Positions 1 through 32,488 of a stretch of DNA of 34,754 nucleotides are shown in pieces; the stretch's first letter is position 1, and the number at the start of each line of letters is the position of its first letter. This DNA is from Melioribacteraceae bacterium (GTDB lineage: Bacteria; Bacteroidota; Ignavibacteria; Ignavibacteriales; Melioribacteraceae), in the NCBI GenBank assembly GCA_026983955.1, contig JALSTB010000158.1, positions 1 to 34,754 on the forward strand. Direction: 5' to 3'. Made by a program: the position numbers and the translations under genes. Under the pieces are notes generated by a model. It made no database searches. It was not told where the DNA came from and worked only from the letters and a program-made list of their open reading frames with translations.

Positions 1-77
1 AGTAAATTAAATTCGAAAAAAAGAATCCGCAAAACACAAACAAAACCGGAAAACAAAAATACAACGGTTAAAATATT

Positions 78-94
78 TTCAATTAATAATTGAA
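78..94. other. 17-bp inverted repeat just upstream of the flippase gene
   Basis: The 8-base arms TTCAATTA and TAATTGAA are exact reverse complements separated by one base. The repeat ends 8 bases before the GTG start of the flippase gene. It could be an operator or a small leader structure, but the region is very AT-rich, so chance is a real alternative. The rest of positions 1-102 is A-rich and shows no coding frame or convincing -35/-10 pair. Confidence 0.3.
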
Positions 95-102
95 TTTGAA
101 TA

Positions 103-1560
103 GTGACTTTAAAAAAATTAAGCAAAAATACTTTAGTTTACACAGTCGGGAACATTGCGTTAAGAACTTCGGCTTTTATTTTGCTTCCCCTTTATTCCCA
201 TTTTTTAACGAAGAATGATTTCGGTATTCTTCAAACTCTATTGTTCACTATTCAAATAATGATTACTTTAATTGATGTCGGTGTTAGAACTTCACTTGTC
301 CGTTTTCTACACGAATCCGAAAAAGAGAAAACATTAAAGGAACTTTTGGGCAGTGCATTAACAATTAATTTATTCAGCGGGATAATTTTAATATCAATTT
401 CCGTAACTTTGTTACTACCTCTTTTCTCCTATTTCATTCCCAAACAAAATATACGGGATTTAATTCTGCTAACCGCATTGGCAGCAGCGGTTCAGACTTT
501 TGCTCTGAATATAATGACGTATTACCGTGCTAAAAACCTCGGCGCCCGATTTATGATGTTTAGCCTTGCTGCAGCGGTTCTGCTTATTTTGTTTACATAT
601 ATTTTTGTGGTAATCTACGGAATGGGAATAAAGGGTGCGTTATTGTCGTTAATTTTCAGTTACGGTATTTTGTGGGTAATAATTTCCGGCTTGGTCTATT
701 CCGGAAACGGGATTTCGGTTTCATCCCGGTTAATTAAAAGGCTAATGGTATTCGGAGCCCCTTTAATTTTAGCCATGGCAGGAGATTTGATGCTCAATAC
801 GGCAGGCTCGTTTTTCTTAGGCCGTTTTGAAAGTTACGAGGAAGTGGCTACTTACACAATGGCTTTTAAGATTGCACAGATAAGTTTAATTGTTTTAATT
901 ATTCCTTTTCAATTGGCATACGAACCTTATGTTTACTCAAATGCGGATAATCCTGAATTAAAACGCAACATATCCAAAATTACAACGTACTTAATGCTTG
1001 CTTTTCTGTTGTTATCCCTTGGAATTGTTTTTGTATTTAAAGATTTGCTTGCGTTGATTCTGGGTAAACATTTTTCGGACTCGTACAAATTGATTTATTT
1101 CATTTTGCCGGGCTTTGCTTTTATGGGATTGCAATACATTGGACAATCGCTTCTTCATATAAATAATAAAACCAACATTACGGGCACAACTGTGATTTTT
1201 TTCACAATTACCGGTATAATTTTAAATTATTTTACTATTAAAATTTTCGGAATTTACGGTATAATTTTTACTTTCAATTTAATTATGTTTTTTACCGCTT
1301 GTACATTGATTTTATTCGGACAAAAATCTTTCAAGATTGAATTCGAATACGGAAGGTTGGCGGTTATTGCTCTAAGTTTTATTGTATTGTTATCGATTTC
1401 ATATTTTTTAAGTAATTTTTCTTCGATTATTTACTATCCGTTCTTCGGAATGATTATTGTTCTTTTTATTACGGTATTGTATTTTTCGGAATTTTTAACA
1501 AGCAAGGAAAAATTACTAATTAAATCATTTGAATTATCAAAATTGTTTAATAAAAGCTAA
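103..1560 (+). CDS. Wzx-like polysaccharide flippase (MATE/MOP superfamily)
   Basis: The 485-residue protein is almost entirely hydrophobic helices, about 12-14 membrane spans. It opens with a short basic stretch (MTLKKLSKNT) and the pattern VYTVGNIALR..AFILLPLYSHFLT..DFGI, typical of polysaccharide-biosynthesis/oligosaccharide flippases. The family moves undecaprenyl-diphosphate-linked repeat units across the inner membrane. The start is GTG: an in-frame stop lies two codons upstream and the N-terminus matches the family, but no clear Shine-Dalgarno is visible. The next gene begins 3 bases after the stop codon, so this heads a rightward operon. It is the only flippase in the window and probably also serves the glycosyltransferases of the convergent leftward block. 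Family assignment is strong; the substrate is unknown. Confidence 0.85.
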   Translation: MTLKKLSKNTLVYTVGNIALRTSAFILLPLYSHFLTKNDFGILQTLLFTIQIMITLIDVGVRTSLVRFLHESEKEKTLKELLGSALTINLFSGIILISISVTLLLPLFSYFIPKQNIRDLILLTALAAAVQTFALNIMTYYRAKNLGARFMMFSLAAAVLLILFTYIFVVIYGMGIKGALLSLIFSYGILWVIISGLVYSGNGISVSSRLIKRLMVFGAPLILAMAGDLMLNTAGSFFLGRFESYEEVATYTMAFKIAQISLIVLIIPFQLAYEPYVYSNADNPELKRNISKITTYLMLAFLLLSLGIVFVFKDLLALILGKHFSDSYKLIYFILPGFAFMGLQYIGQSLLHINNKTNITGTTVIFFTITGIILNYFTIKIFGIYGIIFTFNLIMFFTACTLILFGQKSFKIEFEYGRLAVIALSFIVLLSISYFLSNFSSIIYYPFFGMIIVLFITVLYFSEFLTSKEKLLIKSFELSKLFNKS

Positions 1561-1563
1561 TTT

Positions 1564-2916
1564 ATGTTTTCAGGCGATTTATATAGCGTATTAATTCTAC
1601 TCTCCGCTGCATTGGCCGGAATTGGCATATTTTATATCTGTTACAAAAGATTTGAATTCGCTATTTTCTTATTTTTGTTATCACCGTGGATTTTCTCCGC
1701 TTTTTATACCAATTATCCTGAATGGATAAATTACGAACTTCAAACAGGGATTAACGGTTACCTGCGCGGCGGAACTTTGGCTATGCTGGGAGTTGCCGGT
1801 TTACTAAAATTTATTACCAAATGGCCTGAACACAAAGGCAAAATTTCACTGCCCTTTGTTTTACTTGGCATATTTTTATTATTGGCATTTGCATCTTATC
1901 TTTATTCACTTGATCAAAGATACACTTTTATTCGCGCTTCCCTTTTCACCACAGTATTTATGTTTATGCTGGGATTCTACAGCTGGTTGGATAGCAAAGA
2001 AAAATTCGAATCGGCTATTAATGCGGCTTACTATTACATTCTTTTTATGATTGTTATAAACTTAATTGCCCTGGTAATTCTTCCGCAAAGGGTTTGGTGG
2101 TGGAAAACACCAAGCAGGTTTTTAGGACTTTGGGATCACCCGAACAGCATGGGCGGATTTTTCATGCTTTCCTATCCCGTACTTCTATATAAATTGGAAA
2201 AAACCGAGGGCAATAATAAAATTATCGTAGCCATTGCAACAATCTTTGCTTTGTTAATGCACTTCCTTACCGGCTCAAGAACCACATTGCTGGCTTCAAT
2301 ATTCGGAATTTCCATCTGGCTCTTTATGAACAGAAAATGGACAAAATTAATTTATTTAACTCTGATTTTGAGTGTGTTCGCATTTTTAATTTTGCAATTT
2401 ATTCCTTCCAGTTTTCAACGTGGTGAAGGTACAGGTATAACCACTTTAACCGAGCGTGAAGATTTGTGGCAAGGTGCAATTTTAATGATTAAACAAAACT
2501 TGCTTGCCGGTTACGGTTACGGAACGGAAGCAAAAATATTTGCCGGACAAAAACTTTTTGATTTGCAAGGTAAATTCTTTATTGCAAGTGCCCAACAACC
2601 GCTGCACAACGGTTTTATATCCATTTTAGCCGGGGGCGGTATTTTTGTTTTCCTGCTTTGGCTTGCAATTATATTTATTCCTATATTTAAGTTTAAAAAT
2701 ATTAAAGATTTACCTCTGCAATCTTTTGTATATACTATTTTTCTCGTGGTACTTCTTACGAATATTACGGAAAATTCTCTTACAGGTTATATGTCCGAAA
2801 CCGATTTGTTTTTCTGGTTTGCATGGGTCGTAGGACTTAAAGCCTCGCAATCGATCCCGGGAGTTCAATCACAACCGGTTCATAACGAATATAAATTAAT
2901 TCCAGAAGATATATAG
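1564..2916 (+). CDS. O-antigen ligase/polymerase-like membrane protein (Wzy/WaaL superfamily)
   Basis: The 450-residue polytopic membrane protein has roughly 10-12 hydrophobic spans. Family-like features are the segment GLWDHPNSMGG (about residues 188-198), the HFLTGSRTTLLAS motif (about 233-245) with the conserved Ser-Arg, a large periplasmic loop, and a late PLHNGFISILAGGG segment. Such proteins either polymerise lipid-linked repeat units (Wzy) or transfer glycan to an acceptor (WaaL/O-ligase). Sequence alone does not separate the two. The ATG lies 3 bases after the flippase stop and the GT2 gene follows after 7 bases, so co-transcription is likely. A second, dissimilar Wzy-like protein is encoded at 17070-18428, so this copy may be the ligase or a specialised polymerase. 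Confidence 0.8.
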   Translation: MFSGDLYSVLILLSAALAGIGIFYICYKRFEFAIFLFLLSPWIFSAFYTNYPEWINYELQTGINGYLRGGTLAMLGVAGLLKFITKWPEHKGKISLPFVLLGIFLLLAFASYLYSLDQRYTFIRASLFTTVFMFMLGFYSWLDSKEKFESAINAAYYYILFMIVINLIALVILPQRVWWWKTPSRFLGLWDHPNSMGGFFMLSYPVLLYKLEKTEGNNKIIVAIATIFALLMHFLTGSRTTLLASIFGISIWLFMNRKWTKLIYLTLILSVFAFLILQFIPSSFQRGEGTGITTLTEREDLWQGAILMIKQNLLAGYGYGTEAKIFAGQKLFDLQGKFFIASAQQPLHNGFISILAGGGIFVFLLWLAIIFIPIFKFKNIKDLPLQSFVYTIFLVVLLTNITENSLTGYMSETDLFFWFAWVVGLKASQSIPGVQSQPVHNEYKLIPEDI

Positions 2917-2923
2917 AGTAAAA

Positions 2924-3790
2924 ATGAAAAAATATGTGTTAATTACTGCTGCAAAAAACGAACAAAGCTTTATCGAAAGTACCATTAATGCGGTAATCAG
3001 ACAAACAATTAAACCCGTGAAATGGATTATTGTAGATGATAATTCAACAGACAGAACGGCTGAAATAGTAAAGAATTATCATGAGAAATACGATTTTATT
3101 CAATTGGTACAAGTTAAAGACCAGAATCAAAACAGAAACTTTGCCTCGAAGGTATATGCGATAAACCACGGTATAAAACACCTTGAGGGTATCGAATACG
3201 ATTTTCTTGGTATTCTTGATGCGGATGTTACATTCGATATAGACCATTATGAAAGAATTTTGAACAAGTTCGATCAAAACCCGAAACTCGGTTTGGCCGG
3301 TGGTGAATTTTTTGACGTTTACGACGGAAAATTAAATCCCATTTTCAAAAGTTCCGGCAGCGTCCGGGGCGCTACGGCAATGTTCAGGCGGGAATGCTTT
3401 GAAGATACGGGCGGTTTCACACCTCTAAAATACGGGGGTGAAGATGCCGTAATTGAAGCTGCCGCCAGAATGCATGGCTGGCAAGTGCAATCGTTTAACG
3501 ACACCGTGATTTTACACCACAGACGAACCGGAAGTGAAACATTCAGCGTGTGGACAAGGAAATTTTTAGACGGACAAATTGCATATTCGATGGGTTACCA
3601 TCCGTTATTCCAATTTCTGAAATCTTTCCACAGATTTTTGGAAAAACCTTACGTTGTAGGCGGTGTTTTTATGCTTGCCGGATTTTTCTGGGCTTATCTC
3701 AACAAACACGACAGGTATGTTTCGAAGGATTTTATTAACCATATCCGCAAAGAGCAATTGAGAAGAATTAAACACCTTTCCATTAATTAA
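2924..3790 (+). CDS. Family 2 glycosyltransferase
   Basis: A GT-A type GT2 enzyme of 288 residues. It opens with YVLITAAKNEQSFIESTINAV, followed by the nucleotide-binding IIVDDNSTDRTAEIV (about residues 35-49), a DAD (DxD-type metal/nucleotide site, about 98-100) and a GGED motif typical of the catalytic region. It has a hydrophobic stretch near the C-terminus (VVGGVFMLAGFFWAYL) that could bind the inner membrane. It should add one sugar from a nucleotide donor to the lipid-linked repeat unit in the cytoplasm. Spacing is tight on both sides, between the ligase/polymerase gene and the deacetylase gene. The sugar specificity cannot be read from the sequence. Confidence 0.85.
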   Translation: MKKYVLITAAKNEQSFIESTINAVIRQTIKPVKWIIVDDNSTDRTAEIVKNYHEKYDFIQLVQVKDQNQNRNFASKVYAINHGIKHLEGIEYDFLGILDADVTFDIDHYERILNKFDQNPKLGLAGGEFFDVYDGKLNPIFKSSGSVRGATAMFRRECFEDTGGFTPLKYGGEDAVIEAAARMHGWQVQSFNDTVILHHRRTGSETFSVWTRKFLDGQIAYSMGYHPLFQFLKSFHRFLEKPYVVGGVFMLAGFFWAYLNKHDRYVSKDFINHIRKEQLRRIKHLSIN

Positions 3791-3802
3791 GCAACCTGTC
3801 GA

Positions 3803-4576
3803 ATGAAAAGAATCGTTAAACTGATTATAAGTTTTCTATATCTGCCGCTAAATAAAATTTTAATGTTCAAATCCCCGCTCCATTCGATTTTCTATTTTCA
3901 TTCCGTCTATAGAGAAACCCGTGGCAAATTCGAAGAGCAAATAAAATTTATTGAAAAACATGCCGCTCCGGTTAATTTAACAGAAAACGATGAACTTAAA
4001 CCGCGCAAAAAATATTTTTCATTAACTTTCGACGACGGATTTCAAAACTTATTGGAAAACGTAATTCCCTTTTTGGAAAAGAAAAATTTACCCGCTGTCA
4101 TTTTCATACCCACAAATTACATAGGTAAAAAACCCGAGTGGTCCATTTCAAACGAAATATACGAGAAAGATAAATCGGAATTTATAATGACCGTTGAACA
4201 AATAAAAAACCTTAACAAGCAATTATTTTCTATCGGTTCGCATACATGCTCGCATCCGTATCTATCGAAATTAACCGGAGAAGAGATAAAACATGAATTG
4301 CAAGAATCAAAAAGAATTTTGGAATCAATAGTAGATTACGAAATAGATATGTTGAGCTTCCCGCACGGCGATTATTCCCAGGAAGTAATTGAAATTGCGG
4401 AAGAACTTGGTTATAAAAAAATGTTCGGAATTTTAGCGGGCAATGTCAACTATAAAGACAAGCCAATCGGCAGAATATTTGTTTCGCCGAATGAATGGAA
4501 AATTGAACTTTGGTTAAAAATAAATGGTGGTTACAATTGGCAACAATTAGTCAAAAAACTAAAGGATTATATTTAA
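3803..4576 (+). CDS. Polysaccharide deacetylase (NodB homology, CE4)
   Basis: The 257-residue protein has the CE4 signature motifs. TFDDGF carries the catalytic Asp77 and metal-binding Asp78. The SHTCSHP motif gives the zinc ligands His147 and His151, and SFPHGDY (about 185-191) gives the third region. The N-terminus (MKRIVKLIISFLYLPL) is basic then hydrophobic and could be a signal anchor, but no clear cleavage site is seen. The family removes N-acetyl groups from GlcNAc-type residues in polysaccharides. Its place between a glycosyltransferase and two FemAB/GNAT-like genes suggests it exposes amines on the exopolysaccharide, which the neighbouring transferases might then acylate; that link is inference. 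The stop codon is about 50 bases before the preferred start of the next gene. Confidence 0.87.
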   Translation: MKRIVKLIISFLYLPLNKILMFKSPLHSIFYFHSVYRETRGKFEEQIKFIEKHAAPVNLTENDELKPRKKYFSLTFDDGFQNLLENVIPFLEKKNLPAVIFIPTNYIGKKPEWSISNEIYEKDKSEFIMTVEQIKNLNKQLFSIGSHTCSHPYLSKLTGEEIKHELQESKRILESIVDYEIDMLSFPHGDYSQEVIEIAEELGYKKMFGILAGNVNYKDKPIGRIFVSPNEWKIELWLKINGGYNWQQLVKKLKDYI

Positions 4577-4626
4577 CCGTTCCTTTCCGTTCAACCGGTT
4601 ATGAAAAAAAATCTGCCGGTAGTGCT

Positions 4627-5649
4627 TTGGGAACAGAAATCACACTTAAAAGCGAATCCGAATGGTTATCGATAATCGAAAAGTTCGAAGACGCCAATTT
4701 TTATCAAACCAGAACTTTTGGCAAGCACTCTCTGGGTGGTAGCAAACTCGAGCATTTTATTGTAAAGCAGAACGGAATTATTGTCGGTGCTGCGGAAGTA
4801 AGAATTCTTACAGTTAAATTTCTCAACCGTGGAATTGCTTATATCCGGTGGGGACCAATGTGGAAATTGAAAAACCGGAAACACGATTTCACCAAACTGT
4901 TATTAATTCTAAAAGAGTTGAGAAAAGAATATGTAATAAAACGCAAACTAAAATTGCGCATCTTCCCGGAATGTTATTCAAATAATAAATATTTAATTAG
5001 TATTTATCGCAAAGCGGGCTTCAAACTAAACAAACATCATCCGGAAGAAAAAACAATTTTATTGGATATTCGCTCAGACCTTAACACGATAAGAAATAAT
5101 TTCAAACGCAAGTGGCGCGCGAATCTCAAAAAAGCGGAAGCAATGAACTTGGACATAATTGAAAGCTATAATAATAAATTATTCAACAGCTTTTTTAGTA
5201 TTTACACCGAGATGCAAAAGTTGAAAAACTTTAAAGAAAATATAGATGTTAAATCTTTTGCGGAAATGCAACATGAGTTACCCGATAAATATAAAATGCG
5301 TGTATTTTTGGCACAGCAAAACGGAAAACCCGCTGCAGCTTTAGTGGGAACCGCTATCGGGAAAACCGGGATTTGTCTGCTTGCGGCGTCAAACCAATTG
5401 GGAAGAGAAACACGCGCTTCGTTCAAACTTCATCTTCATATGATTCGATGGCTTAAAAATATGGGTTGCGAATACTATGATGTCGGTGGAATCGATAAAG
5501 AAAAAAATCCCGGCGGATACAGATTCAAATCCGGTTTGAACGGTAAAGAAGTATCTTTCATCGGTACATTCGATTCTTGTATTTGCCCGGTCAGCTGGTT
5601 AATCACCACAGCCGGCGAATTATTTCTTAAGTTAAAATCTCTGTTTTAA
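4627..5649 (+). CDS. FemAB/GNAT-like transferase, copy 1
   Basis: The 340-residue protein resembles lipid II:glycine glycyltransferase (FemAB) and GNAT acyltransferase relatives found in exopolysaccharide loci. Visible blocks are YIRWGP in the N-terminal half, FKRKWRANLKKAEAMNL mid-protein, and YYDVGGIDKEKNPGGYRFKSGLNG near the C-terminus. The next gene encodes a clear paralogue. I place the start at TTG 4627 because it aligns to within two residues with the TTG start of that paralogue. An open frame extends back to ATG 4510, but those 39 residues overlap the deacetylase gene and have no counterpart in the sister protein. An ATG at 4601 followed by eight A is one base out of frame: a ninth A would give an N-terminus MKKKSAGSALGTE. 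That could mean a sequencing error or slippage. The exact acyl or aminoacyl donor is unknown. Confidence 0.8.
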   Translation: MGTEITLKSESEWLSIIEKFEDANFYQTRTFGKHSLGGSKLEHFIVKQNGIIVGAAEVRILTVKFLNRGIAYIRWGPMWKLKNRKHDFTKLLLILKELRKEYVIKRKLKLRIFPECYSNNKYLISIYRKAGFKLNKHHPEEKTILLDIRSDLNTIRNNFKRKWRANLKKAEAMNLDIIESYNNKLFNSFFSIYTEMQKLKNFKENIDVKSFAEMQHELPDKYKMRVFLAQQNGKPAAALVGTAIGKTGICLLAASNQLGRETRASFKLHLHMIRWLKNMGCEYYDVGGIDKEKNPGGYRFKSGLNGKEVSFIGTFDSCICPVSWLITTAGELFLKLKSLF

Positions 5650-5695
5650 TTATATTAGGATGCTAAAATAAGGACAATCTACCGGAATTGAAGAT

Positions 5696-6682
5696 TTGAA
5701 AATATATAAAAATCATTATGAAAATTGGGATAGTCTTCTAACGTTGTTCGATGATTCCAATATATATCAAACACCGGCTTTCGGGAAATTTTCGAAAGGT
5801 GGTGAAAAACTTGAATATTGCGTAATTGAGAACAACGGCGAGATTATTGCCATTGCACAAGTGAGATTAAAAACAATACCCGTTCTCAATAAAGGAATAG
5901 CCTATATCCGGTGGGGACCGCTCTGGCAATTACGTAATCAACAGCCCAGCCAAAACAATCTTCGATTAGCACTTCAAAAATTAAGTGAAGAATATTCCGT
6001 TAAAAGAAAGTTGGTATTACGTATTATGCCAAATGTTACCGGGGATAACGGAATACTCTCTTCATTGGGTTTCAAGAAACTTCAAAACCAAAAGCCATAC
6101 AGAACATTTATTGTTGATATTCGTGAAAGTTTGGAAGAAATACGTAAACGTTTCAGAAAAAAGTGGAGATACAGCCTTAAACAAGCAGAGAAAAAAAATA
6201 TTCAAGTTGAAAGCGGTGAATCCGTTGGGATGTTCGATACTTTCATCGGTTTGTACCGGTCAATGCACAGTCGTAAACAGTTCAAAGAATATGTGGATGT
6301 TGAAGCTTTCCGCAAAATTCAACAAGCTTTACCTTCCCGGAGCAAAATGAAAATATTCATTGCCTATATTGAAAATAAACCCGTTGCGTCAATTGTGGTT
6401 TCCGCAATGGGCAATACCGGTATTTATTTATTGGGCGGCTCGAATGAAACCGGTTTAAAGTATTCCGCATCTTACTTATTGCAATGGAAAGCAATCGAAT
6501 GGTTGAAGGAGAATGGAATACAATACTACGATTTGGGTGGAATTGATCCGGAAGCAAATCCCGGGGTCTACACTTTCAAAAAGGGAATGGGCGGAGAAGA
6601 TATAAGTTTTATAGGGACATTCGAAAAATCCGGCGGAATCCTCAGTCCGTTAATAGTAAAGCTTGGCGAAAAGCTAAAATAA
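5696..6682 (+). CDS. FemAB/GNAT-like transferase, copy 2
   Basis: The 328-residue paralogue of the preceding protein shares the blocks YQT.AFGK (about residues 24-31), GIAYIRWGP (67-75), FRKKWRYSLKQAEKK (about 152-166), and YYDLGGIDPEANPGVYTFKKGMGG near the C-terminus. These match FemAB-like peptidyl/acyl transferases with a double GNAT fold, as found in bacterial exopolysaccharide clusters. The start is TTG, with GGAATTGAAG upstream as a possible ribosome site; no better in-frame start is visible. The gene follows copy 1 after a 46-base gap, which fits tandem duplication. The two DNA copies still share the exact 17-base stretch coding for this motif (4840-4856 and 5903-5919). Likely role: acylation or aminoacylation of the polysaccharide or its lipid-linked precursor; this is inference. 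Confidence 0.8.
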   Translation: MKIYKNHYENWDSLLTLFDDSNIYQTPAFGKFSKGGEKLEYCVIENNGEIIAIAQVRLKTIPVLNKGIAYIRWGPLWQLRNQQPSQNNLRLALQKLSEEYSVKRKLVLRIMPNVTGDNGILSSLGFKKLQNQKPYRTFIVDIRESLEEIRKRFRKKWRYSLKQAEKKNIQVESGESVGMFDTFIGLYRSMHSRKQFKEYVDVEAFRKIQQALPSRSKMKIFIAYIENKPVASIVVSAMGNTGIYLLGGSNETGLKYSASYLLQWKAIEWLKENGIQYYDLGGIDPEANPGVYTFKKGMGGEDISFIGTFEKSGGILSPLIVKLGEKLK

Positions 6683-6739
6683 TTTCCGTTACTTAATTTA
6701 TCCACAGCACAAAATATTTTTTATTCCGGAAAGGTTTGA

Positions 6740-7528
6740 ATGAAAAGCGAATCAATGATTAATTATGCAACCTATAATGATTACAAGACAGTTGAAAAAT
6801 ATTCGAAGGTAAATTCGCTTCAAGAACCGGAGAGAAAAATTCTCGAATTGTTAAAACCGGCATTAAAAAACATGCGAATGCTTGATATTGGAGTGGGCGC
6901 CGGAAGAACAACCCGTTACTTTTCCAATCATGTTAAAGAATATGTGGGCATTGACTATTCACCTTTAATGATAGAAAGGTGCAAACACAATTTTGAGAAC
7001 CGGCCGGACAACATAAAATTTGAGATTATAGATGTGATAGATTTATCAGTATTCCCGGATAATTATTTTGATTTTGTTTTGTTCAGTTTTAACGGTATCG
7101 ATTATCTTTCCAAAGAAGAAAGGCAATTGGCATTTAAAAATATTTTGAGGGTCGGCAAAAACGGAGGTTATTTCAGTTTCTCTACTCACAATATTTTAAG
7201 TGTGAAAAACTTATTCGACTTTAAGAAACAATTTACAAGTAATCCCAAACAACTAATGCGGAACTTAAAAACATGGTTTCGATTGAAGCTTTTATACCCC
7301 CAACCGGATAAGCTTTACAAAAACCGGGATTATGTAATATTTAACGACGGATCGCTGAATTTCAATTTATTAACTTTTTACACCAATCCACAAATTCAAA
7401 AAGAAGAACTTTCAAAAAATTTTACCTGTATTAAGATGTTCGATTCAAACGGAAATATTATCAACGGAAATGAATTGGACACGGTAAATGATAACTGGAT
7501 TTATTTTTTGTGCAAGTTCAACAAATAA
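6740..7528 (+). CDS. Class I SAM-dependent methyltransferase
   Basis: A Rossmann-type methyltransferase of 262 residues. Motif I is MLDIGVGAGRTT (about residues 47-58), which binds S-adenosylmethionine. The acidic ribose-binding residue is in VGIDYSP (Asp72), followed by a further acidic loop IIDVIDL and FDFVLFSFNGIDYL. It is most like small-molecule or sugar methyltransferases of the Methyltransf_11/25 type. Its ATG is preceded by GGAAAGG at a usable distance. It is the last gene of the rightward EPS block, after a 57-base gap, and its stop faces the stop of the convergent beta-helix gene only 9 bases away. The target may be a sugar of the repeat unit, but the sequence does not show it. Confidence 0.82.
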   Translation: MKSESMINYATYNDYKTVEKYSKVNSLQEPERKILELLKPALKNMRMLDIGVGAGRTTRYFSNHVKEYVGIDYSPLMIERCKHNFENRPDNIKFEIIDVIDLSVFPDNYFDFVLFSFNGIDYLSKEERQLAFKNILRVGKNGGYFSFSTHNILSVKNLFDFKKQFTSNPKQLMRNLKTWFRLKLLYPQPDKLYKNRDYVIFNDGSLNFNLLTFYTNPQIQKEELSKNFTCIKMFDSNGNIINGNELDTVNDNWIYFLCKFNK

Positions 7529-7540
7529 GTGCAGCACTTA
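7526..7540. repeat. Perfect palindrome holding both convergent stop codons
   Basis: The sequence TAAGTGCAGCACTTA has 7-base arms around one central base. Its left TAA is the stop of the methyltransferase gene and its right end, read on the minus strand, is the TAA stop of the beta-helix gene. No T-tract follows on either strand, so it is not a standard intrinsic terminator. A stem of 5-6 pairs is possible on either transcript. It may be coincidental. Confidence 0.4.
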
Positions 7541-9049
7541 GTAACATTCACACGCACCGATATCAATTTTTTCATCAACTATTTCATTTCCCCAAAAGTC
7601 AGAATCCAAACCAACATACTTACCGGCATTTATACAAGGGGATGTATCTTTTAATTTAAATGTTTTAATATTTAATTGAGGATCGGCATTTATTCCGTTT
7701 CTGTCAAAACCGGTTCCGTTAACATAATTTCCCCACTGGGAATAATACTTTCCGCTGACCCAAACCAAATTTCCATCGTTTCTGAACCAGCAATTGTAAT
7801 CTATCAATTTATTTGCCGGGTTATGGATAAAGATCAGCGCGTAATATTCATCCCCAATCCCGATGTTATTAATAAGTTCAACATAACCCGAATCGTTTTC
7901 AAGAGTAAAACAAGTGCTTTCCGGCTGGTAAACCGTATTGTTATAAACAAACACACTGTCCGTATTATCTTGAATACTTATTCCAATTCCTTTTGTATTG
8001 AATAAAATGTTATAATAAATCCCGGCTTGTTTAATTTTGCCTCCGTTAAATGCATAAAGCTGAATACCCACTTCTTTTCCGTTAAAATTCAAATTATCGT
8101 AAACTTTATTATATCTAATTACAGTATTACGCAAAATATTTACCGAGTCGCCGTTATTCATAATATCAATTCCGGTATGATAATTATTGTAAACCGTGTT
8201 CCTTTCGATTGTATTGTTCTCAACCTTTGCATTTCCGAAAGCAGAAAGGTAAAAACCGTGTTGACCGTTTTCGTAAAGGATATTATTTGAGAAAAGACCG
8301 TTCCCGCCTTCGTATTGAATTCCTTGTCCATTGGATTCATCGGTCGCACCGTTGTGGTGGGAGATACAATTTTTAATAATCCAATTCTTTCCGTCAACTA
8401 TTCTTATGCCCGAATCGATTGTAAAAAGAATTTCAAAATTCTCAATGATTATATTTTCTGCTCCTTCGCCATACCAACCGGAAATAATTCCGAACTCTCT
8501 GACCGAAAGCTCAATCGATTTAAATTTTCCGGAGGGATTCCCAAAGGAGTAAACGTAAACCAAAGAGTCGTCGATGTAAAAATCCCGCTCCGAATTAAGA
8601 TCATTGAATGAAGTTTTTTTCCTTCCCCAGAAAATCGAACCGGCACTTACGAACCAGAGCCAATTTCCTTTAACTTGCGAAAGCGCTTTCCAAACATTCG
8701 GACTAACCTTTTCCCAATTTTGCAAAGCTTCGGATCCCAAAATTACCGGTTTTTTCCCCTTGCCATACGCTCCAACAGTAATAAAATTGCTTGAATCGCC
8801 GTTCCATTTGATGTTGAGTTCTTCGCGCCAGACCGAACCCCTTCTGAACAAAATACTGTCACCCGGCACAAAATCGAATGAATTTACTTTTTCGATAGTG
8901 CTCCATGCCGAATCGATTGAAGTACCGGGATTACCGTCGTTGCCCTTTTCGGAATCCACATAATAAGTTTTTGCTCGTACACCAAGGGAAAGTACGAATA
9001 TCATAAAAACAAAAAGGTGTCCCGTGAACACCTTTTTCAATTGGACCAT
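7538..9049 (-). CDS. Secreted right-handed beta-helix repeat protein
   Basis: The 503-residue protein has a signal peptide: basic MVQLKK, a hydrophobic core, and a likely cleavage after VRA at residue 26. The mature start KTYYVDSEKGNDGNPGT is typical of parallel beta-helix proteins (DUF1565/pectate-lyase-like). The centre carries repeated short strands with N and I/V ladders (IIIENFEILFTIDSGIRI, NNILYENGQHGF, YNILFNTKGIGIS). The C-terminus ends KIDIGACECY, resembling the D-I-G-A-x-E ending of many Bacteroidota beta-helix proteins. Such folds include polysaccharide lyases, epimerases and binding proteins, but no catalytic set can be assigned here. It is the last gene of the leftward EPS block, 12 bases after wecB. 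A strong terminator-shaped hairpin lies within codons 5-14. The next Met (codon 16) would leave too short a signal peptide, so I keep this start. Confidence 0.8.
   Translation of the reverse strand: MVQLKKVFTGHLFVFMIFVLSLGVRAKTYYVDSEKGNDGNPGTSIDSAWSTIEKVNSFDFVPGDSILFRRGSVWREELNIKWNGDSSNFITVGAYGKGKKPVILGSEALQNWEKVSPNVWKALSQVKGNWLWFVSAGSIFWGRKKTSFNDLNSERDFYIDDSLVYVYSFGNPSGKFKSIELSVREFGIISGWYGEGAENIIIENFEILFTIDSGIRIVDGKNWIIKNCISHHNGATDESNGQGIQYEGGNGLFSNNILYENGQHGFYLSAFGNAKVENNTIERNTVYNNYHTGIDIMNNGDSVNILRNTVIRYNKVYDNLNFNGKEVGIQLYAFNGGKIKQAGIYYNILFNTKGIGISIQDNTDSVFVYNNTVYQPESTCFTLENDSGYVELINNIGIGDEYYALIFIHNPANKLIDYNCWFRNDGNLVWVSGKYYSQWGNYVNGTGFDRNGINADPQLNIKTFKLKDTSPCINAGKYVGLDSDFWGNEIVDEKIDIGACECY
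9002..9037 (-). terminator. Terminator-like hairpin inside the start of the beta-helix gene
   Basis: On the minus strand the arms AAAAAGGTGT (9037-9028) and ACACCTTTTT (9020-9011) are exact reverse complements around a 7-base centre, TCACGGG. In RNA the stem extends inward through one U-G and one C-G pair, giving about 12 pairs with a 3-base ACG loop. The second arm continues into GTTTTT. This is the shape of an intrinsic terminator: A-tract, GC-containing stem, T-tract. It begins 25 bases after the wecB stop and 12 bases inside the next coding sequence. On the plus strand it also forms a 10-bp stem ending in five T, so it could act in both directions. Confidence 0.6.
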
Positions 9050-9061
9050 AAAGTTTGTTTC

Positions 9062-10156
9062 CTAACTGAGTTTTTCAACCAGAATCGATACTATTCTTTC
9101 TGCGGCTTTACCGTCCCATAACTCCGGAATTTGTCCTTCTTTTTTCTTTCCGTTGAGCACTTCAAGAGCGGCTTGCTCGGCTTTGTTCAGGTCGTTACCC
9201 AACAATTGGTTTGTGCCTACTTCAACAGTTACAGGCCTTTCCGTTGAAGTCCGCAAGGTAATGCATTGTACACCGAGATAAGTGGATTCTTCTTGAATAC
9301 CGCCGCTGTCGGTTAAAATTAATTCAGCATTTTTAGTTAGGGTAAGAAAATCGATATAACCAATAGGGTCGGTTAGAATAAGGTTTGAGTTCCGTTCGTC
9401 CAGAAGATTATATTCCGCAATGTTCTTACGTGTACGCGGGTGAATGGGGAAAATGACTTTTCTTTCACCGCTTAACCGTTCAAGCATAGCGATTAATTTT
9501 GTCAGTTGTTCTTTTGAATCCACATTACTGGGACGATGCAGTGTTACCAATATATAATTTTGCGGTTCCAGTCCGTAATCTTTTAATACTGTCCGACCGT
9601 TGGTTTTATCCAAGTAATAGACCAGACTGTCAATCATCACATTCCCTACAAAGAAAACTTTCGAACCGTCAACACCTTCGTGCTCGAGATTTTCCAATCC
9701 GCTTTTTTCGGTTACGAAAAGATAATCGGAAATAGCATCGGTAAGAACGCGGTTAACTTCTTCGGGCATTTTACGGTCGAAACTTCTCAATCCCGCTTCA
9801 ACGTGAACAACCTTAATATGCAGTTTGGCTGCGGTTAAACTACACGCAATGGTTGAATTAACATCCCCTACAACCAGAATCATATCGGGTTTTTCTTGCA
9901 ACAATACTTTTTCGAATTCCATCATCACCTTTGCCGTTTGCTCGGCATGGCTTCCGCTGCCTACACCCAAATAAAAATCGGGTTTCGGCAATTCCAAATC
10001 GTCGAAGAATACTTTCGACATTCTTTCATCGTAGTGTTGACCTGTATGGCAAATTAAATGTTGAACGCTATCTTTATACTTTTGAAACGCTCTGTGAATA
10101 GGTGCAACTTTCATGAAATTTGGGCGCGCACCCACAACGGAAATTATTTTTTTCAA
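9062..10156 (-). CDS. wecB: UDP-N-acetylglucosamine 2-epimerase, non-hydrolysing
   Basis: The 364-residue cytoplasmic enzyme interconverts UDP-GlcNAc and UDP-ManNAc. Family motifs are clear: GARPNFMKVAP (9-19), TGQHYD (38-43), VVGDVNST (95-102, with catalytic-type Asp98), HVEAGLRS (118-125, Glu120), PEEVNR (131-136), LHRPSNVD, and TDSGGIQEE near residue 285. Length matches the family. It belongs to the leftward EPS operon, 23 bases after the Wzi-like gene. The same operon encodes a UDP-hexosamine dehydrogenase and a WecG-type glycosyltransferase, so the product may be oxidised to UDP-ManNAcA and transferred, as in enterobacterial common antigen. That pathway is inferred from gene content. Confidence 0.95.
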   Translation of the reverse strand: MKKIISVVGARPNFMKVAPIHRAFQKYKDSVQHLICHTGQHYDERMSKVFFDDLELPKPDFYLGVGSGSHAEQTAKVMMEFEKVLLQEKPDMILVVGDVNSTIACSLTAAKLHIKVVHVEAGLRSFDRKMPEEVNRVLTDAISDYLFVTEKSGLENLEHEGVDGSKVFFVGNVMIDSLVYYLDKTNGRTVLKDYGLEPQNYILVTLHRPSNVDSKEQLTKLIAMLERLSGERKVIFPIHPRTRKNIAEYNLLDERNSNLILTDPIGYIDFLTLTKNAELILTDSGGIQEESTYLGVQCITLRTSTERPVTVEVGTNQLLGNDLNKAEQAALEVLNGKKKEGQIPELWDGKAAERIVSILVEKLS

Positions 10157-10179
10157 TTTAACCTCGTTTATTTAGCAAA

Positions 10180-11832
10180 TTACAAACCGTAATATAGAGA
10201 AAAAGAAAAATTATCAAAGTAATTTATTACAAAATTATTATCAGTTTCTTCAATCTTATTTCTCAAATGAGAATACCGGGTTTCAACAAACAAATCATGT
10301 AATATTTCATATTTTAAATTTAATCCGAATCCGTTATAATATTTTTTTAGACCGAAAAGAAATTCCGGTTGCGGCAAAGAATATTGTTGTTCTACCGTTC
10401 CCTTGCTTCCTTTACGGATAAAATGTCCCCATAGTGTTGCTTGGAGCCCACGTAAAAATCTGTAATTAGCCGATGCGTAAACAATATCGGCATTAGAGCC
10501 TATCCAATGGCCCATTAAATATGAATGATTTTCGTATGTTTGTGTTTGTATAAAATTACTGTACACAAAAGGATTAATTCTGGAATACTCAACGTTTAAT
10601 GTTAAATTTTCAAAAGGTAAATCAACTATTTCCATTCCAAAAGTAAAGCCGGTTTGATTTTTCCTCCGGCTGGCATCGAAGATTTTCTCAAAAGATATTT
10701 CGTCAATAAAAACTGTAAACCACACGTGTGTATTTTTCAAATGATTTTTAGAACTTATATTCAAGAAAAATTGACCGTTATCACCTTGGGTTATATCATA
10801 TTTGCTCAGATAATGGTCGGCAGCTTTGAAGAATATAACCGGAATCAAGTAAACCGGTTCAAACCTGTCGCTGTAAATCATCGATTCCCCAAGTGATATG
10901 GTTAAACCTTGTGCCGGAATCAACGATACCGTATGTGAAACAAAATATTTTTCCCTCGTTGTTCTTCTTTCATACAAATCAGCAGAATATGTTTTTATAG
11001 AATCGATTACATCCGAAGAAAGTTTAGCATGTATGTAATTAAAGCTGATCCAACCCGCCGGCTTCAAATCCAATCGCAAGTATGGGAAAGACGGGGCTTT
11101 GGACGATAACACGATTTTACCGCTTTTTCCGTACCCCCATTCAATAAAATCTTTACCGAGAGAAAATTCACCCCATTTCCAAGAAATTCCGAGATTCACA
11201 TTTATTTCACTATATTCTATTGAGTTTTGTGTTTTGTTGTTAATTATTATCCCGGTTTGCGGAGTGAATGATTTATCTATATCAATTGTGTTACCGCTTT
11301 CACCGTTATCTCTAAAGCTGAAGCTAAAACCTAAAAAAGAATCAAGGTAGCCGGAAAACCGGAGACCGTTCCAACGGTGAATATTAAATTGATTTTCCCG
11401 GGAAAATATTCTCGCTCCGGCAATGGGTTCCGCATTAATTTTCAAAAGTGTATCGGAGTAACTGAAAAATCTGAAACGCGAGAATTCGTCTTGACTGAAT
11501 ATTGTTCGATTATAATTATCGCTACGTTCCAAATTATAATCCGAAAGAAAAAAGGCGAGCTCTTCCCGCTCCAAATTTGTCAGCAAACCGTATTTACATT
11601 TGGCTTCGTTTAATTTGGTTACAATAGCGATTCTGGAAAGAGGCAGAATCAAATTATCGAATTCTATAACCCCTTTATTGCTCAATCTCCCCAAAAAATC
11701 ATATACGTCTTTATAAAGCGGTTCGTTAACCACTTGTGCTTTCAATTGGGAAAACATGAAAACGAAAAGCAAAGCGGGTAAGATTTTTGAATTAATGGAT
11801 CCAATAAAATGCGTGCGGATGTTAATATGCAT
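10180..11832 (-). CDS. Wzi-like capsule assembly outer-membrane protein
   Basis: The 550-residue protein has an N-terminal signal peptide (hydrophobic ILPALLFVFMFS, likely cut after LKA or nearby). The body alternates polar and hydrophobic residues as in a beta-barrel. It contains the segment LGKDFIEWGYGKSGKIVLSS and the following PYLRLDLKPAGWISFNYIHAKL, characteristic of the capsule-assembly Wzi family, and ends FSFSLYYGL with the terminal hydrophobic/aromatic pattern of outer-membrane proteins. In enteric bacteria Wzi helps attach or organise capsule at the surface. This protein is somewhat longer than the E. coli one. Its ATG overlaps the 3' end of the glycosylphosphotransferase gene by 11 bases, indicating translational coupling in the EPS operon. 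Confidence 0.85.
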   Translation of the reverse strand: MHINIRTHFIGSINSKILPALLFVFMFSQLKAQVVNEPLYKDVYDFLGRLSNKGVIEFDNLILPLSRIAIVTKLNEAKCKYGLLTNLEREELAFFLSDYNLERSDNYNRTIFSQDEFSRFRFFSYSDTLLKINAEPIAGARIFSRENQFNIHRWNGLRFSGYLDSFLGFSFSFRDNGESGNTIDIDKSFTPQTGIIINNKTQNSIEYSEINVNLGISWKWGEFSLGKDFIEWGYGKSGKIVLSSKAPSFPYLRLDLKPAGWISFNYIHAKLSSDVIDSIKTYSADLYERRTTREKYFVSHTVSLIPAQGLTISLGESMIYSDRFEPVYLIPVIFFKAADHYLSKYDITQGDNGQFFLNISSKNHLKNTHVWFTVFIDEISFEKIFDASRRKNQTGFTFGMEIVDLPFENLTLNVEYSRINPFVYSNFIQTQTYENHSYLMGHWIGSNADIVYASANYRFLRGLQATLWGHFIRKGSKGTVEQQYSLPQPEFLFGLKKYYNGFGLNLKYEILHDLFVETRYSHLRNKIEETDNNFVINYFDNFSFSLYYGL

Positions 11833-13207
11833 TCGGGTCGCCGGTAATAGTTTTAATAATGGTTTTAAATATAATTTTAATATCGAGCCAGAACGACCAA
11901 TTTTCGATGTACCATAAATCGAATTCTACTCTTTTCCTCATTTGGAGTTCGTTTTCCGTTGCCCCCCGGAAACCGTTTATTTGCGCCCAGCCGGTAATAC
12001 CAGGTTTAACCAAATGCCTTAGCATGTAATTGTCTATTTTGTCTTTCGCAAATACATTGAGCGGTGTTGGGTGCGGACGCGGACCAACAACGGACATTTC
12101 ACCTTTCAGAACATTTATGAATTGAGGCATTTCGTCCAAATTTGTTCTGCGTAAAAATTTACCGATTCCGGTTATCCGAGGATCACTTTTTGTTGCCTGT
12201 ACAAAATCACTTTGATTATTTACTTTCATAGTTCTGAATTTAAGAACATAAAATTTTTTGTTGCCTCTACCCCATCGCTCTTGTTTGAATAATACCGGGC
12301 CTTCCGAAGTCAATTTAATCAGCAATGCAACTACCGGAAACAAAACAGGAAAAACAAACAATATTACTAACAATGAAAAAACAATATCGAAAATTCGCTT
12401 GAGAATACGCCAATGAGTCGAATAAAGATAATCTTTTCTGACCGTTTCGATTTCGAATTTGTCAAAAATATTTAATCTGTCGTTACCGGTTGTATAGTTT
12501 TTGTATCCCCTTACCAATCTAACCCGTGTGGGATGTTTCTCGCTTGTTCTGATAATATCGTTTATTTGTTTATCGGAGAACTGTGTAGTATTAATTAGTA
12601 CATTATCAACTTTCGTATTTTCAAGAATTTTTTCCAAATCCGATATTTTACCGAGATACTTACCGTTTAACGACGGTACGGGAAAATCATTCAAAAATCC
12701 GGTCACATAATATCCGAGTTCCTTGTTTTTTCCGATCTGCTCGTACAAATCCAATGTAATCTCATTTCCACCGACAAATAAAATTGTTCTCAGATTCCTG
12801 CCTTTTTTTCTCAGCCTTTCCAAAACTTTTCTGAAGATTAATCTTTCCAAAGAAATAAAAGCAAACAACGAAATACCGTAAGCTGCAACCATAATTTTAT
12901 TGTGTGCAAATATATTCAGCAAAAAAAGAAGCGTTATTAAACTGATAAGTTGTATAACCGATTGATTAAATATTGATATTAATTCAAATTTAATATTTCT
13001 AATTTGAAATTCATCATAAATCCTGGTTTCCTTCGAAGAAATCATCCAAATCAGAATTAAAGAAGCGGAAACCACCAAAAACAAAGTATTAAAACTTTTA
13101 CCTTGCTCATTTGAGAAGTACCACCAATTGGAAACAAGCGTGAAATATAAAACGATTATATCCGCACCAATTCGTAAGAAGTTATATGTTTTTCTTTGGA
13201 AATCCAT
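11822..13207 (-). CDS. Polyprenyl glycosylphosphotransferase (initiating sugar-phosphate transferase, WcaJ/WbaP type)
   Basis: A 461-residue protein with the full polyisoprenyl-phosphate hexose-1-phosphate transferase layout. It has four N-terminal membrane helices (about residues 10-125) and a Rossmann-like CoA-binding/PglD-like segment (about 138-235, ILFVGGNE). A membrane re-entrant helix KRIFDIVFSLLVILFVFPVLFP (about 270-291) leads into the catalytic C-terminal domain with FKQERWGRGNKKFYVLKFRTM (about 307-327), LRRTNLDEMPQFINVLKGEMSVVGPRP (352-378) and KPGITGWAQINGFRG. It starts repeat-unit assembly by moving sugar-1-phosphate to undecaprenyl phosphate. It is the only initiating enzyme in the window. 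Start ATG 13207 is 3 bases past the WecG-like stop. The first sugar is not determinable. Confidence 0.93.
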   Translation of the reverse strand: MDFQRKTYNFLRIGADIIVLYFTLVSNWWYFSNEQGKSFNTLFLVVSASLILIWMISSKETRIYDEFQIRNIKFELISIFNQSVIQLISLITLLFLLNIFAHNKIMVAAYGISLFAFISLERLIFRKVLERLRKKGRNLRTILFVGGNEITLDLYEQIGKNKELGYYVTGFLNDFPVPSLNGKYLGKISDLEKILENTKVDNVLINTTQFSDKQINDIIRTSEKHPTRVRLVRGYKNYTTGNDRLNIFDKFEIETVRKDYLYSTHWRILKRIFDIVFSLLVILFVFPVLFPVVALLIKLTSEGPVLFKQERWGRGNKKFYVLKFRTMKVNNQSDFVQATKSDPRITGIGKFLRRTNLDEMPQFINVLKGEMSVVGPRPHPTPLNVFAKDKIDNYMLRHLVKPGITGWAQINGFRGATENELQMRKRVEFDLWYIENWSFWLDIKIIFKTIIKTITGDPNAY

Positions 13208-13210
13208 GTA

Positions 13211-13975
13211 TCAATCAAATTTTCTAATTCTCAATAACTCCAAAACGATATACAATAAAAATAAGGAGTTTGTAGTTAAATATCTTTTCCATAATCTTCC
13301 GGGTTCTTGCATCAATCTGTAAAACCATTCCAGGGAATTTTTTTTCATCCAACGAGGTGCATGTTTTAAATTACCGGCATAATAATCGAAACCCGCACCG
13401 ATACCAATCATCACTCCTCTTTTTAACTTCTTGTGATTTTCGAAAATCCATCTTTCTTGTTTCGGAGCGCCTAGTGCAACCCAAATAATATCGGGACTTA
13501 CCGAGTTAATTTTATTCATATAAACCGAGTTTTCTTCACCGGAAAATTCACTAAAAGGCGGTATAATATTACCGGCGATGATACAACCGGGTAGTGTTTC
13601 CGATATTTTATTCATTATTTTTTGTTGGGTTTCTTCGGTACCCCCAAACAGAAAATGTTTAACACCGTCGGGCACTCCCCATTCCAATGATTTTTCAAAG
13701 AAGGTCGGACCAAAAATCCGGGTAATTTGTTTTTCTCCTTTTATTTTTGCTATTACGGAAAGGGGCTTGCCGTCGGGCAATGAAAGATAAGATTTGTTTA
13801 TGATACTTTTATAATACTCGTCCCGTACAGCAGTAACAACCGTATGAACATTATTGACGGTAATATATCCTGCATTACCTTTTTTTATAAAACTCAAAAC
13901 TTCTTCATACGCTTGACGGTACGAATTTATTATTGAAATACGGGAGCCGAGGATTTTAGTTTCTTTCATTCCCAA
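13211..13975 (-). CDS. WecG/TagA/CpsF family glycosyltransferase (GT26)
   Basis: The 254-residue protein carries the family hallmarks: TVNNVHTV (39-46), LPDGKPL (66-72), FGPTFFE (88-94), FLFGGTEETQQK (108-119), IIWVALGAPKQERWI (163-177), and the C-terminal block GIGAGFDYYAGNLKHAPRWMKKNSLEWFYRLMQEPGRLWKRY (191-232). Members transfer N-acetylmannosamine or N-acetylmannosaminuronic acid to a lipid-linked GlcNAc. With wecB and a UDP-hexosamine dehydrogenase in the same operon, this enzyme probably adds the second sugar of the repeat unit. Its 5' end overlaps the upstream GT4 gene by 20 bases, so starts at Met1 or Met3 are equally possible. The hydrophobic C-terminal tail may touch the membrane. 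Confidence 0.9.
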   Translation of the reverse strand: MGMKETKILGSRISIINSYRQAYEEVLSFIKKGNAGYITVNNVHTVVTAVRDEYYKSIINKSYLSLPDGKPLSVIAKIKGEKQITRIFGPTFFEKSLEWGVPDGVKHFLFGGTEETQQKIMNKISETLPGCIIAGNIIPPFSEFSGEENSVYMNKINSVSPDIIWVALGAPKQERWIFENHKKLKRGVMIGIGAGFDYYAGNLKHAPRWMKKNSLEWFYRLMQEPGRLWKRYLTTNSLFLLYIVLELLRIRKFD

Positions 13976-15065
13976 TTACCGTATCTTTGAAAACCTTTTC
14001 CAAGGCATTCAGGTGATTTTCCAGTGTAAAATGCTCCAGGAATCTTTTTCTCCCTTGCTTTCCCAATTTGTTTCTCAATCCGGAATCATTTATTAATGAC
14101 TTTATTTTTGCCGCAGCAGCCGGAGGATTATTTACCGGAACAAGGAAACCGTTTAGCCCGTCAACTATAATTTCCGGTATTCCGCGGTTGATGGTTGCAA
14201 TTACCGGAAGTTCAAACATCATAGCTTCCAAGAGCACAAGCGGTTGGGCTTCGTACGCTTTACTGAGGAATACGAACAAATCAGCTCCGTTGAATATTTT
14301 CCATTTTTCTTCCCCGGTTACATTGCCTAAAATTCTTATGTTTTTTTCCAACTTATATTCTTTAATCAATTCGTTACATTTTATTGCCTCCTCATTTGAA
14401 ACGAAGTTTCCGGCAATATCCCAATAAAACTTTTTCATACTATTCTTCAAAATTTTTGCGCATTCCAGAATATCGTAAATGCCTTTCTCTTCCGAAATAA
14501 TTCCCACGGATAACAATGTAAAAACACTCCCACGATGTTTACTTTGATATTGCGGATAAACATCTTCGATGCCGTTCGGTACAACATATTCTTTTTTTGA
14601 GCGGAACCAAGTAATTTCATTTAAGTAATGCTTCGATAAAACAATACCCGCATCCGATTTTTTCAATACAACTCCGGCGATTAATTTTTCTATTGCATTC
14701 AAACGACTTAATAATCTATTAATTCCCCCTGCATGAAAATGAAAAACAATTTTTCTTGCCGTCCATCTAATTAGTAACATGGTAACAATATCACGGAAGA
14801 ACGGTATTCTATCCGGCCCGGCCGGCGGATAGTAAATTACATCTATCTTACTTTTTAGTCTTTCCTTCCATACTTTCAAAACTAATTTTGATAATGATAT
14901 AACTTTTGATATTTTAAACTTACCTATTTCATTAATTTCTCCGGAGTAATTCATACGAATATGTGTTTTTTCACACCAATCCCATTTAGCATCAACAAGG
15001 TATTTCTGCATTATGGCTTGACCGTGAAAAGGCGGCGGGGTTTGAGCAAGGATGAGGATTTTCAT
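13956..15065 (-). CDS. Family 4 glycosyltransferase
   Basis: A GT-B fold enzyme of 369 residues. The N-terminus MKILILAQTPPPFHGQAIM has the acceptor-side loop. The donor domain shows VPNGIEDVYP, LLSVGIISEEKGIYDILEC, ILGNVTGEEK, and the E-x7-E motif in EAQPLVLLEAMMFELPVIAT, followed by GIPEIIVDGLNGFLV. It should add one sugar with retention of configuration in the cytoplasm. Its ATG overlaps the FkbM gene stop by 4 bases and its 3' end overlaps the WecG-like gene by 20 bases, so these genes are translationally coupled. Donor sugar unknown. Confidence 0.88.
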   Translation of the reverse strand: MKILILAQTPPPFHGQAIMQKYLVDAKWDWCEKTHIRMNYSGEINEIGKFKISKVISLSKLVLKVWKERLKSKIDVIYYPPAGPDRIPFFRDIVTMLLIRWTARKIVFHFHAGGINRLLSRLNAIEKLIAGVVLKKSDAGIVLSKHYLNEITWFRSKKEYVVPNGIEDVYPQYQSKHRGSVFTLLSVGIISEEKGIYDILECAKILKNSMKKFYWDIAGNFVSNEEAIKCNELIKEYKLEKNIRILGNVTGEEKWKIFNGADLFVFLSKAYEAQPLVLLEAMMFELPVIATINRGIPEIIVDGLNGFLVPVNNPPAAAAKIKSLINDSGLRNKLGKQGRKRFLEHFTLENHLNALEKVFKDTVIGNERN

Positions 15066-15919
15066 CTTATTTGAAGCCCGTAAATTCCACTCAAATGTTT
15101 AATAATTTCGCGGTTGACAAATACAACATTGTTTTCACCTTTGATTATTTCACGTGTGAATAATCTACCATCATAATTGAAATAGAACGGTCCCTCAAAA
15201 TTTTTATTATTACATAACTCCACAATTTCCATTGCATCTTTATTGTTCAATTCACCAAACTCAACAATTATAAATTTTACATGGGAGAGATATTCACCAA
15301 AACCTTTCAATACATCCAATTCAAAACCTTCAACATCAATTTTTAAGAGAGAAGGAACAACATTAAATTCTTTACAAATTTCATCTCCCCTTTTTTTATT
15401 AACAATTATGTGCGGTTCGAATCCCGTTTTCACGAAACGGTTAACGGATGATTCCGCAAAATCCGAAAAACCGCTTCTTCCTTCGGTATTGCTCAAAGCT
15501 AATTTTAAGGGAATAATATTTTCCAGTCCGTTAATCTCAATATTTTTATAAAGTTGACTAAAAGTTTTCGGGTGCGGTTCGAAAGAATAGACCACAACGG
15601 TATTTTCTTCGGCAGCTATTAACGAATAAATTCCAACGTTTGCACCAACATCAAAAAACACGTTTTCTTTTTTGGAAAGCAGTTTTATCAAGTTCATTAT
15701 ATTATAATCATACATTTCCATACTATTTGCCAATGCACAGCCACCACAATTCTTATCTTCAACAATAATTATAAAATTTGATATTTTTATTTCAAATGGA
15801 TATAATTTTAATATTTTCCTTATTTGCCATAAAATATGTTTCGACAATGCTTTGGTTTTGTTAACATGTTTGTTCTCTAAAATCTGGTACAGCGTATTGA
15901 AGAGTTGTTTCGCCGGCAT
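15062..15919 (-). CDS. FkbM family SAM-dependent methyltransferase
   Basis: The 285-residue protein has the FkbM pattern: VFFDVGANVGIYSLIAAE (87-104) as the SAM-binding motif I, SFEPHPKTF (112-120) as the acidic second motif, and LLKIDVEGFELDVLKGF further on. The family O-methylates hydroxyl groups, often on sugars of exopolysaccharides or lipopolysaccharides. It sits between two GT4 genes in the operon, with a 5-base gap on one side and a 4-base overlap on the other, so the target is probably a sugar in the repeat unit. The first 50 residues are not part of the core domain. Confidence 0.85.
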   Translation of the reverse strand: MPAKQLFNTLYQILENKHVNKTKALSKHILWQIRKILKLYPFEIKISNFIIIVEDKNCGGCALANSMEMYDYNIMNLIKLLSKKENVFFDVGANVGIYSLIAAEENTVVVYSFEPHPKTFSQLYKNIEINGLENIIPLKLALSNTEGRSGFSDFAESSVNRFVKTGFEPHIIVNKKRGDEICKEFNVVPSLLKIDVEGFELDVLKGFGEYLSHVKFIIVEFGELNNKDAMEIVELCNNKNFEGPFYFNYDGRLFTREIIKGENNVVFVNREIIKHLSGIYGLQIR

Positions 15920-15924
15920 TGGAT

Positions 15925-19510: not shown

Positions 19511-19526
19511 ATAATTTAACTATTAA

Positions 19527-19555
19527 AGTATAAATAATATAGTATCGTTTTACAA
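19527..19555 (-). promoter_or_regulatory. Candidate internal promoter before the GT2/Wzy block
   Basis: On the minus strand TTGTAA (19555-19550) and TATACT (19532-19527) are separated by exactly 17 bases, close to the sigma-70-type consensus also seen at groESL. The -10 box ends 17 bases before the GT2 ATG, which leaves a short leader. The region is very AT-rich, so chance matches are expected. If real, it would let the central glycosyltransferase block be transcribed separately from the export genes. Confidence 0.4.

Positions 19556-30835: not shown

Positions 30836-32488
<1,653 letters not shown>

Follow-up and report, generated by a model that had tools for sequence, protein, structure and literature searches.

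A putative intrinsic terminator within the signal-peptide codons of a beta-helix gene that follows wecB in a Melioribacteraceae exopolysaccharide operon

The lambda tR2 terminator has been joined to the ninA start in construct W48, which the sections of PMC4824070 on that construct describe as an upstream gene followed by a start codon and by a terminator within the first codons of the new open reading frame (ORF). In pil1, as far as the leader-peptide part of PMC3894217 describes it, and in pyrBI, as cited in the same part of PMC4824070, a terminator overlaps or adjoins translated codons, which there belong to a short leader peptide. The portion of PMC2965389 on E. coli candidate attenuators reports 18 candidates less than 15 nt from a start codon, which were sought in 5' untranslated regions, before that codon. 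Here we describe a terminator-shaped hairpin in a genome of the Melioribacteraceae that resembles each of these systems in part. It has the same G-C core, A/U flanks, U-tail and distance to the last stop codon as an ordinary operon-end intrinsic terminator, but the start codon of a co-directional gene precedes its stem, so that the terminator is also coding. Its closeness to a start codon is similar to that of the E. coli candidates, whereas it lies after that codon. It overlaps translated codons as in pil1 and pyrBI, yet here the overlapped ORF belongs to the gene whose expression would be affected, and no sensor was seen. The closest published layout that we found, going by the sections of PMC4824070 mentioned above, is the lambda tR2/ninA construct; W48 is carried on a plasmid and has a short ORF, whereas the gene described here is chromosomal and has 503 codons. 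In the open literature searched, we found no description of a long chromosomal gene whose signal-peptide codons contain a terminator.

The DNA analyzed, hereafter the window, is a stretch of 34,754 nucleotides (contig JALSTB010000158.1, assembly GCA_026983955.1). A polysaccharide cluster that includes a Wzi-like gene, a sugar transferase, glycosyltransferases and an export protein lies on its minus strand upstream of wecB. The capsule assembly Wzi-like gene (10180..11832, minus strand; PF14052) is next upstream of wecB, which encodes a UDP-GlcNAc 2-epimerase-like protein (9062..10156, minus strand; PF02350, E 2.9e-107) and lies just before the hairpin. The final gene encodes a right-handed beta-helix protein of 503 residues with a signal-peptide-like N-terminus (7538..9049, minus strand; PF13229, E 2.1e-14), and its ORF starts 12 bases past the wecB stop codon. 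It converges with a plus-strand methyltransferase gene, the two ending 9 bases apart at 7528/7538. Two tandem FemAB-like genes (4510-6682) lie close to where the converging polysaccharide operon ends. A second copy of the locus was found in another Melioribacteraceae metagenome-assembled genome (G001, locus L033), hereafter the relative. The order Wzi-like ORF, wecB, beta-helix gene and converging methyltransferase-like ORF is common to both genomes (the first and last matched by eye), with a similar convergent layout in the relative, and the wecB and beta-helix proteins are 91% and 63% identical, respectively. In both genomes wecB has an apparent TTG start with GAGG just upstream (9062-10156; L033:1882-2973).

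The hairpin occupies 9011..9037 on the minus strand. All elements listed in the initial annotation, namely exact arms, a U-G and a C-G pair inside them, a loop of 3 bases and a T-rich run, were confirmed when recomputed. The arms at 9011-9020 (AAAAAGGTGT) and 9028-9037 (ACACCTTTTT) form an exact 10-base complement, and in the minus-strand RNA a U-G and a C-G pair continue the stem inward to an ACG loop, for a total of 12 pairs. The outer stem carries an A-tract and a U-tract, and the U-rich tail, GTTTTTATG, lies directly 3' of the stem (9002..9010, minus strand). The relative's copy (L033:3006-3034) has 13 pairs, and its tail, TTTTTATG, follows the final paired C. Both are G+C-containing stem-loops, with a core of -7.2 kcal/mol in the window and -14.8 kcal/mol in the relative, and both are followed by a U-rich tract, with tail scores of 5.10 and 4.77, respectively. 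The stem starts 24 bases past the last base of the wecB stop codon (9062) in the window and 32 bases past it in the relative, and the G-C core begins about 29-30 and 33 bases past it, respectively. Measured from the ATG at 9047-9049, the stem starts 9 bases downstream, and the hairpin covers codons 5-13 of the beta-helix ORF (9049..7538), with the tail running from codon 14. The annotated position, 25 bases after wecB and over codons 5-14, differs from this by a single base and a single codon.

The hairpin was compared with the terminator-like sites of the two genomes in a survey of 779,458 bases of the window's genome (G000; 61 stretches, one of them the window itself) and 363,200 bases of the relative's genome (20 stretches), 1.14 Mb in total, which used one in-house score and rough gene calls. 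Over both genomes, 23 of the 32 strong terminator-like hairpins were situated 8-44 bases past gene stops, a range that the wecB-end hairpin fits. In the window's genome there were 19 strong candidates, 17 of them less than 300 bases past a same-strand gene end and 2 elsewhere between genes; all but one of the 17 were at 8-44 bases, the wecB-end hairpin among them. Two of the 19 fell inside called genes, namely the wecB-end hairpin and L078:1835-1852. The latter was rejected as a second case of the arrangement because its gene start had been called too early, with a likelier ATG downstream. The 13 strong candidates in the relative's genome comprised 9 past gene ends, of which 7 were at 21-33 bases (the relative's hairpin copy included), 2 at other intergenic positions, and a further 2 within genes, one antisense (L128) and one far from any gene end (L129). 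The hairpin thus lies just after a gene end, like the other terminator-like sites of its genome. Ranked by overall score, the window copy was 25th of 113 candidates in its genome sample and the relative's copy 8th of 60. At the end of the beta-helix gene, no strong terminator was listed on the gene's own strand in either genome. Elsewhere in the window, a strong terminator-like hairpin was found at 32515-32531, 27 bases past the ORF at 30851-32488.

Conservation was assessed at the codon level between the window and the relative. Identical codons made up 54% of shared residues in the beta-helix gene and 50% in wecB. The hairpin and tail together span 13 codons, and each of the 9 non-Met codons for shared residues among them was identical (joint probability approximately 0.0007), as were all 7 shared codons of the stem alone (probability 0.005); both values assume independent codons and come from two sequences only. 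None of 544 comparable stretches elsewhere in the two genes had all shared codons unchanged. The longest run of unchanged codons in the beta-helix gene was 11 and, by count, was the hairpin stretch; another run of 9 unchanged shared codons was found elsewhere in the gene. The remainder of the signal peptide was poorly conserved, with 2 of the 11 residues just past the tail identical. Differences between the two hairpins were confined to changes in the loop, an outer A-U pair replaced by G-U, and a G-G mismatch replaced by a G-C pair. As judged from these two sequences, the distinctive feature is a set of unchanged codons inside an otherwise variable signal peptide. The initial annotation had proposed, as a check, comparing whether relatives keep the hairpin beyond what the protein needs, and in the one relative available the answer was affirmative, with 9 of 9 codons unchanged and the differences keeping or adding pairs. 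Codon-level conservation beside a start codon would also be expected if the hairpin were retained not as a terminator but as an mRNA structure that influences translation or message stability close to where a secreted protein begins. We consider this explanation improbable, given that the U-tail has been kept too and that terminator-like sites of the genome typically lie at a similar distance from the preceding gene stop.

Whether the hairpin exceeds what base composition and protein sequence would produce by chance depended on the measure used. Positions 1-20000 contained 20 terminator-like sites compared to 17.3 +/- 3.8 in shuffled sequences, which is the shuffle level; among these sites, the wecB-end hairpin has the most pairs. 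The fold of a 71-nt segment with the window copy was not unusual (z -1.34; 23 of 200 shuffles equally good), and the corresponding value for the relative's copy was z -3.47, with none of 200 shuffles equally good. Synonymous resampling kept the protein constant (40 residues in the window, 43 in the relative) and took codon frequencies from 19 window ORFs. The observed terminator score was reached by 1 of 5000 resampled versions in the window and by 0 of 5000 in the relative. Since a frequency of 1/5000 across the genes of a genome allows approximately one chance case, conservation carries more weight. Over the nine codons of the hairpin, simple nucleotide identity with the relative was 24/27, and identities of 24-25/27 also occurred in other, protein-conserved stretches of both genes, so that the identity of the hairpin is not exceptional by this measure. 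A chance origin would mean that the A-rich lysine codons followed by T-rich phenylalanine, leucine and valine codons of a signal peptide mimic a terminator. The peptide does favor A and T runs, and the resampling frequency in the window and the ordinary nucleotide identity are compatible with this explanation. It is nonetheless very unlikely, because a diverged relative carries the same hairpin without a synonymous change in the stretch and no resampled version of the relative's copy scored as high.

The position of the protein start determines whether the hairpin lies within the gene. Signal peptides were judged by eye. The upstream candidate, the ATG at 9047..9049 (minus strand), gives a 26-residue signal-peptide-like N-terminus, and an in-frame TTG at 9038..9040 (minus strand), which is kept in the relative, offers an alternative start before the stem. 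An ATG after the U-tail (9002-9004) was rejected, as the likely cleavage point would then be just 11 residues away, with no basic residue before R10. Among the N-termini of 29 rows (L016 internal), the shortest signal-peptide-like stretch was about 17 residues (L011, by eye), and these stretches in relatives usually have a basic residue near the start. From these comparisons we infer that the protein starts before the stem, at either the ATG or the TTG. Because both of these starts precede the stem, an mRNA for the full protein must be read through the putative terminator, which would make the hairpin a built-in attenuator. Given this predicted start, the hairpin is located at the start of the affected gene and on its transcript.

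The hairpin, its U-tail, its position and its conservation in one relative are observed features. Taken together, they suggest that the hairpin is probably a working intrinsic (Rho-independent) terminator, or attenuator, that sets a low and roughly fixed output of the beta-helix gene. Most transcription of the exopolysaccharide operon would stop past wecB, at about 9000-9010, and a minority of polymerases would pass the terminator to yield beta-helix mRNA. Synthesis of the secreted beta-helix protein would consequently be low and in roughly constant proportion to operon output. We infer termination in the cell, partial read-through and a low output as the purpose of the arrangement. The proposal in the initial annotation that the operon terminator is embedded in coding sequence and lowers the level of the last gene is thus the likeliest reading in view of form, position and one-relative conservation. 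Two observations count against it, namely that the hairpin was found in two genomes only and that the window copy is moderate (core -7.2 kcal/mol). The distance from wecB may also be relevant. For an E. coli system, the section of PMC4824070 on stop-codon distance reports full termination efficiency once the stop codon lies more than about 27 bases before the hairpin. The stem in the window, 24 bases past the wecB stop, falls slightly short of this distance, and termination might be somewhat impaired by a ribosome positioned at the wecB stop.

A different role for ribosomes was also part of the initial annotation, in which translation-dependent read-through was suggested. According to this explanation, ribosomes from the beta-helix start or from wecB would keep the hairpin open, as in pyrBI and pil1. 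The ORF is in frame through the hairpin in both genomes, an AGGA lies 14 bases before the ATG in the window, and there is precedent: the leader-peptide part of PMC3894217 documents ribosomes opening a terminator in pil1, and a passage of PMC5021804 reports that in E. coli ribosomes prevent intrinsic terminator hairpins when coupling is tight. However, an AGGA that begins 14 bases before the ATG is a poor Shine-Dalgarno match, at the outer limit of the spacings seen in this genome (5 of 457 ORFs at that spacing, compared to 20 at the peak spacing), and the relative has no clear Shine-Dalgarno match before the start. With the stem only 9 bases past the ATG, polymerase should complete the terminator before a new ribosome gets going. 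Furthermore, in a single E. coli construct described in the relevant section of PMC4824070, translation reduced the efficiency of a terminator 30 bp past the start codon by only about 10%. A loss of this size, together with the short gap and the poor Shine-Dalgarno match, makes translation-dependent read-through unlikely, and this suggestion was not upheld.

The wecB end and the hairpin region were searched for elements that could alter expression of the beta-helix gene. Approximately 350 bases before the wecB stop there is a hexamer resembling a -10 element, which reads TATAAT in the window and TACAAT in the relative; since it sits on the same Tyr-Asn codons in both genomes, it may reflect nothing more than the protein sequence. 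The wecB end contained no Bacteroidetes-type TAnnTTTG, and synonymous conservation was not raised at the wecB 3' end. In the minimum-energy and centroid folds, which were the folds compared, no antiterminator structure or sensor was seen; positions 8900-9150 contained one inverted repeat, and Rfam returned no match over 8000-10500 at E values up to 1. Within this scope no sensor or competing fold was seen, and the hairpin would be an attenuator by its geometry.

A regulated switch would require more, namely that the signal-peptide codons double as an attenuator and that an antiterminator, such as a second NusG-family protein, extends the operon conditionally. The section of PMC7593976 on UpxY describes these NusG relatives as activators of capsular polysaccharide operons in Bacteroides fragilis. 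A second NusG-family gene was found in all 4 genomes of the genus, and in the window's genome it lies between an HD/OB-fold gene and a histidine kinase gene (G000:C18:41512-41790; L146, L153). No NusG-family protein was found near the operon among the 23 window proteins scanned (a set without the rightmost ORFs), and no evidence links the second NusG to the hairpin site. We regard conditional antitermination at this site as very unlikely.

The hairpin was also assessed on the opposite strand. The initial annotation had raised the possibility that the plus-strand hairpin stops antisense transcripts, in this case those of the converging operon before they reach wecB, a role that can coexist with the attenuator proposed above. 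The portion of this claim that stood was the genomic setting, in that no strong terminator was found between the converging genes at 7528-7538 and the relative is also convergent. The hairpin itself was less favorable: its plus-strand core and tail are weak, all the more so in the relative, with plus-strand scores below those of the minus strand in both the window (19.6 vs 27.6) and the relative (17.3 vs 33.9), and the site lies 1.5 kb beyond the end of the converging operon. An antisense role thus has a slim probability and, with the weaker plus-strand version in both genomes, would be at best secondary.

Homologue searches covered 97 genomes, 79 genomes of the family and 164 of the order, in overlapping sets. 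Matches to the beta-helix protein at E 0.001 were obtained in 27 of the 97 genomes, and at E 1e-40 only in the window's genome, the relative and one further genome (G002). The G002 protein is 35% identical and is encoded on a different contig from that of the G002 wecB. A scan of viral contigs for the beta-helix locus returned none. The hairpin pattern occurred in 2 of 58 genomes. Among 30 wecB 3' flanks, the hairpin was absent from the 28 others, and a strong score was obtained in at least 3 of the 30, comprising the two hairpin copies and a different strong terminator at L043; this count is a lower bound because hairpins visible by eye at L040 and L042 were missed by the scan. The wecB flank of L039 has a terminator with a weaker tail. 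Likewise, among 30 beta-helix loci, examined over 125 bases around the likely start, a strong hairpin was absent from the other 28. In another genus of the family (L008, L037), wecB and a beta-helix gene share one 3.9 kb contig (G021:C153), where they are separated by an ORF that by eye looks acyltransferase-like, and the start of the beta-helix gene carries no strong hairpin.

If the attenuator reading is true, one stretch of DNA would serve as both a terminator and signal-peptide codons and would have been kept as such in two species. The arrangement would provide a simple means of holding one operon product at a fixed low ratio to the rest, and the locus would offer a natural test site for how far ribosomes protect the first codons of a gene from termination.
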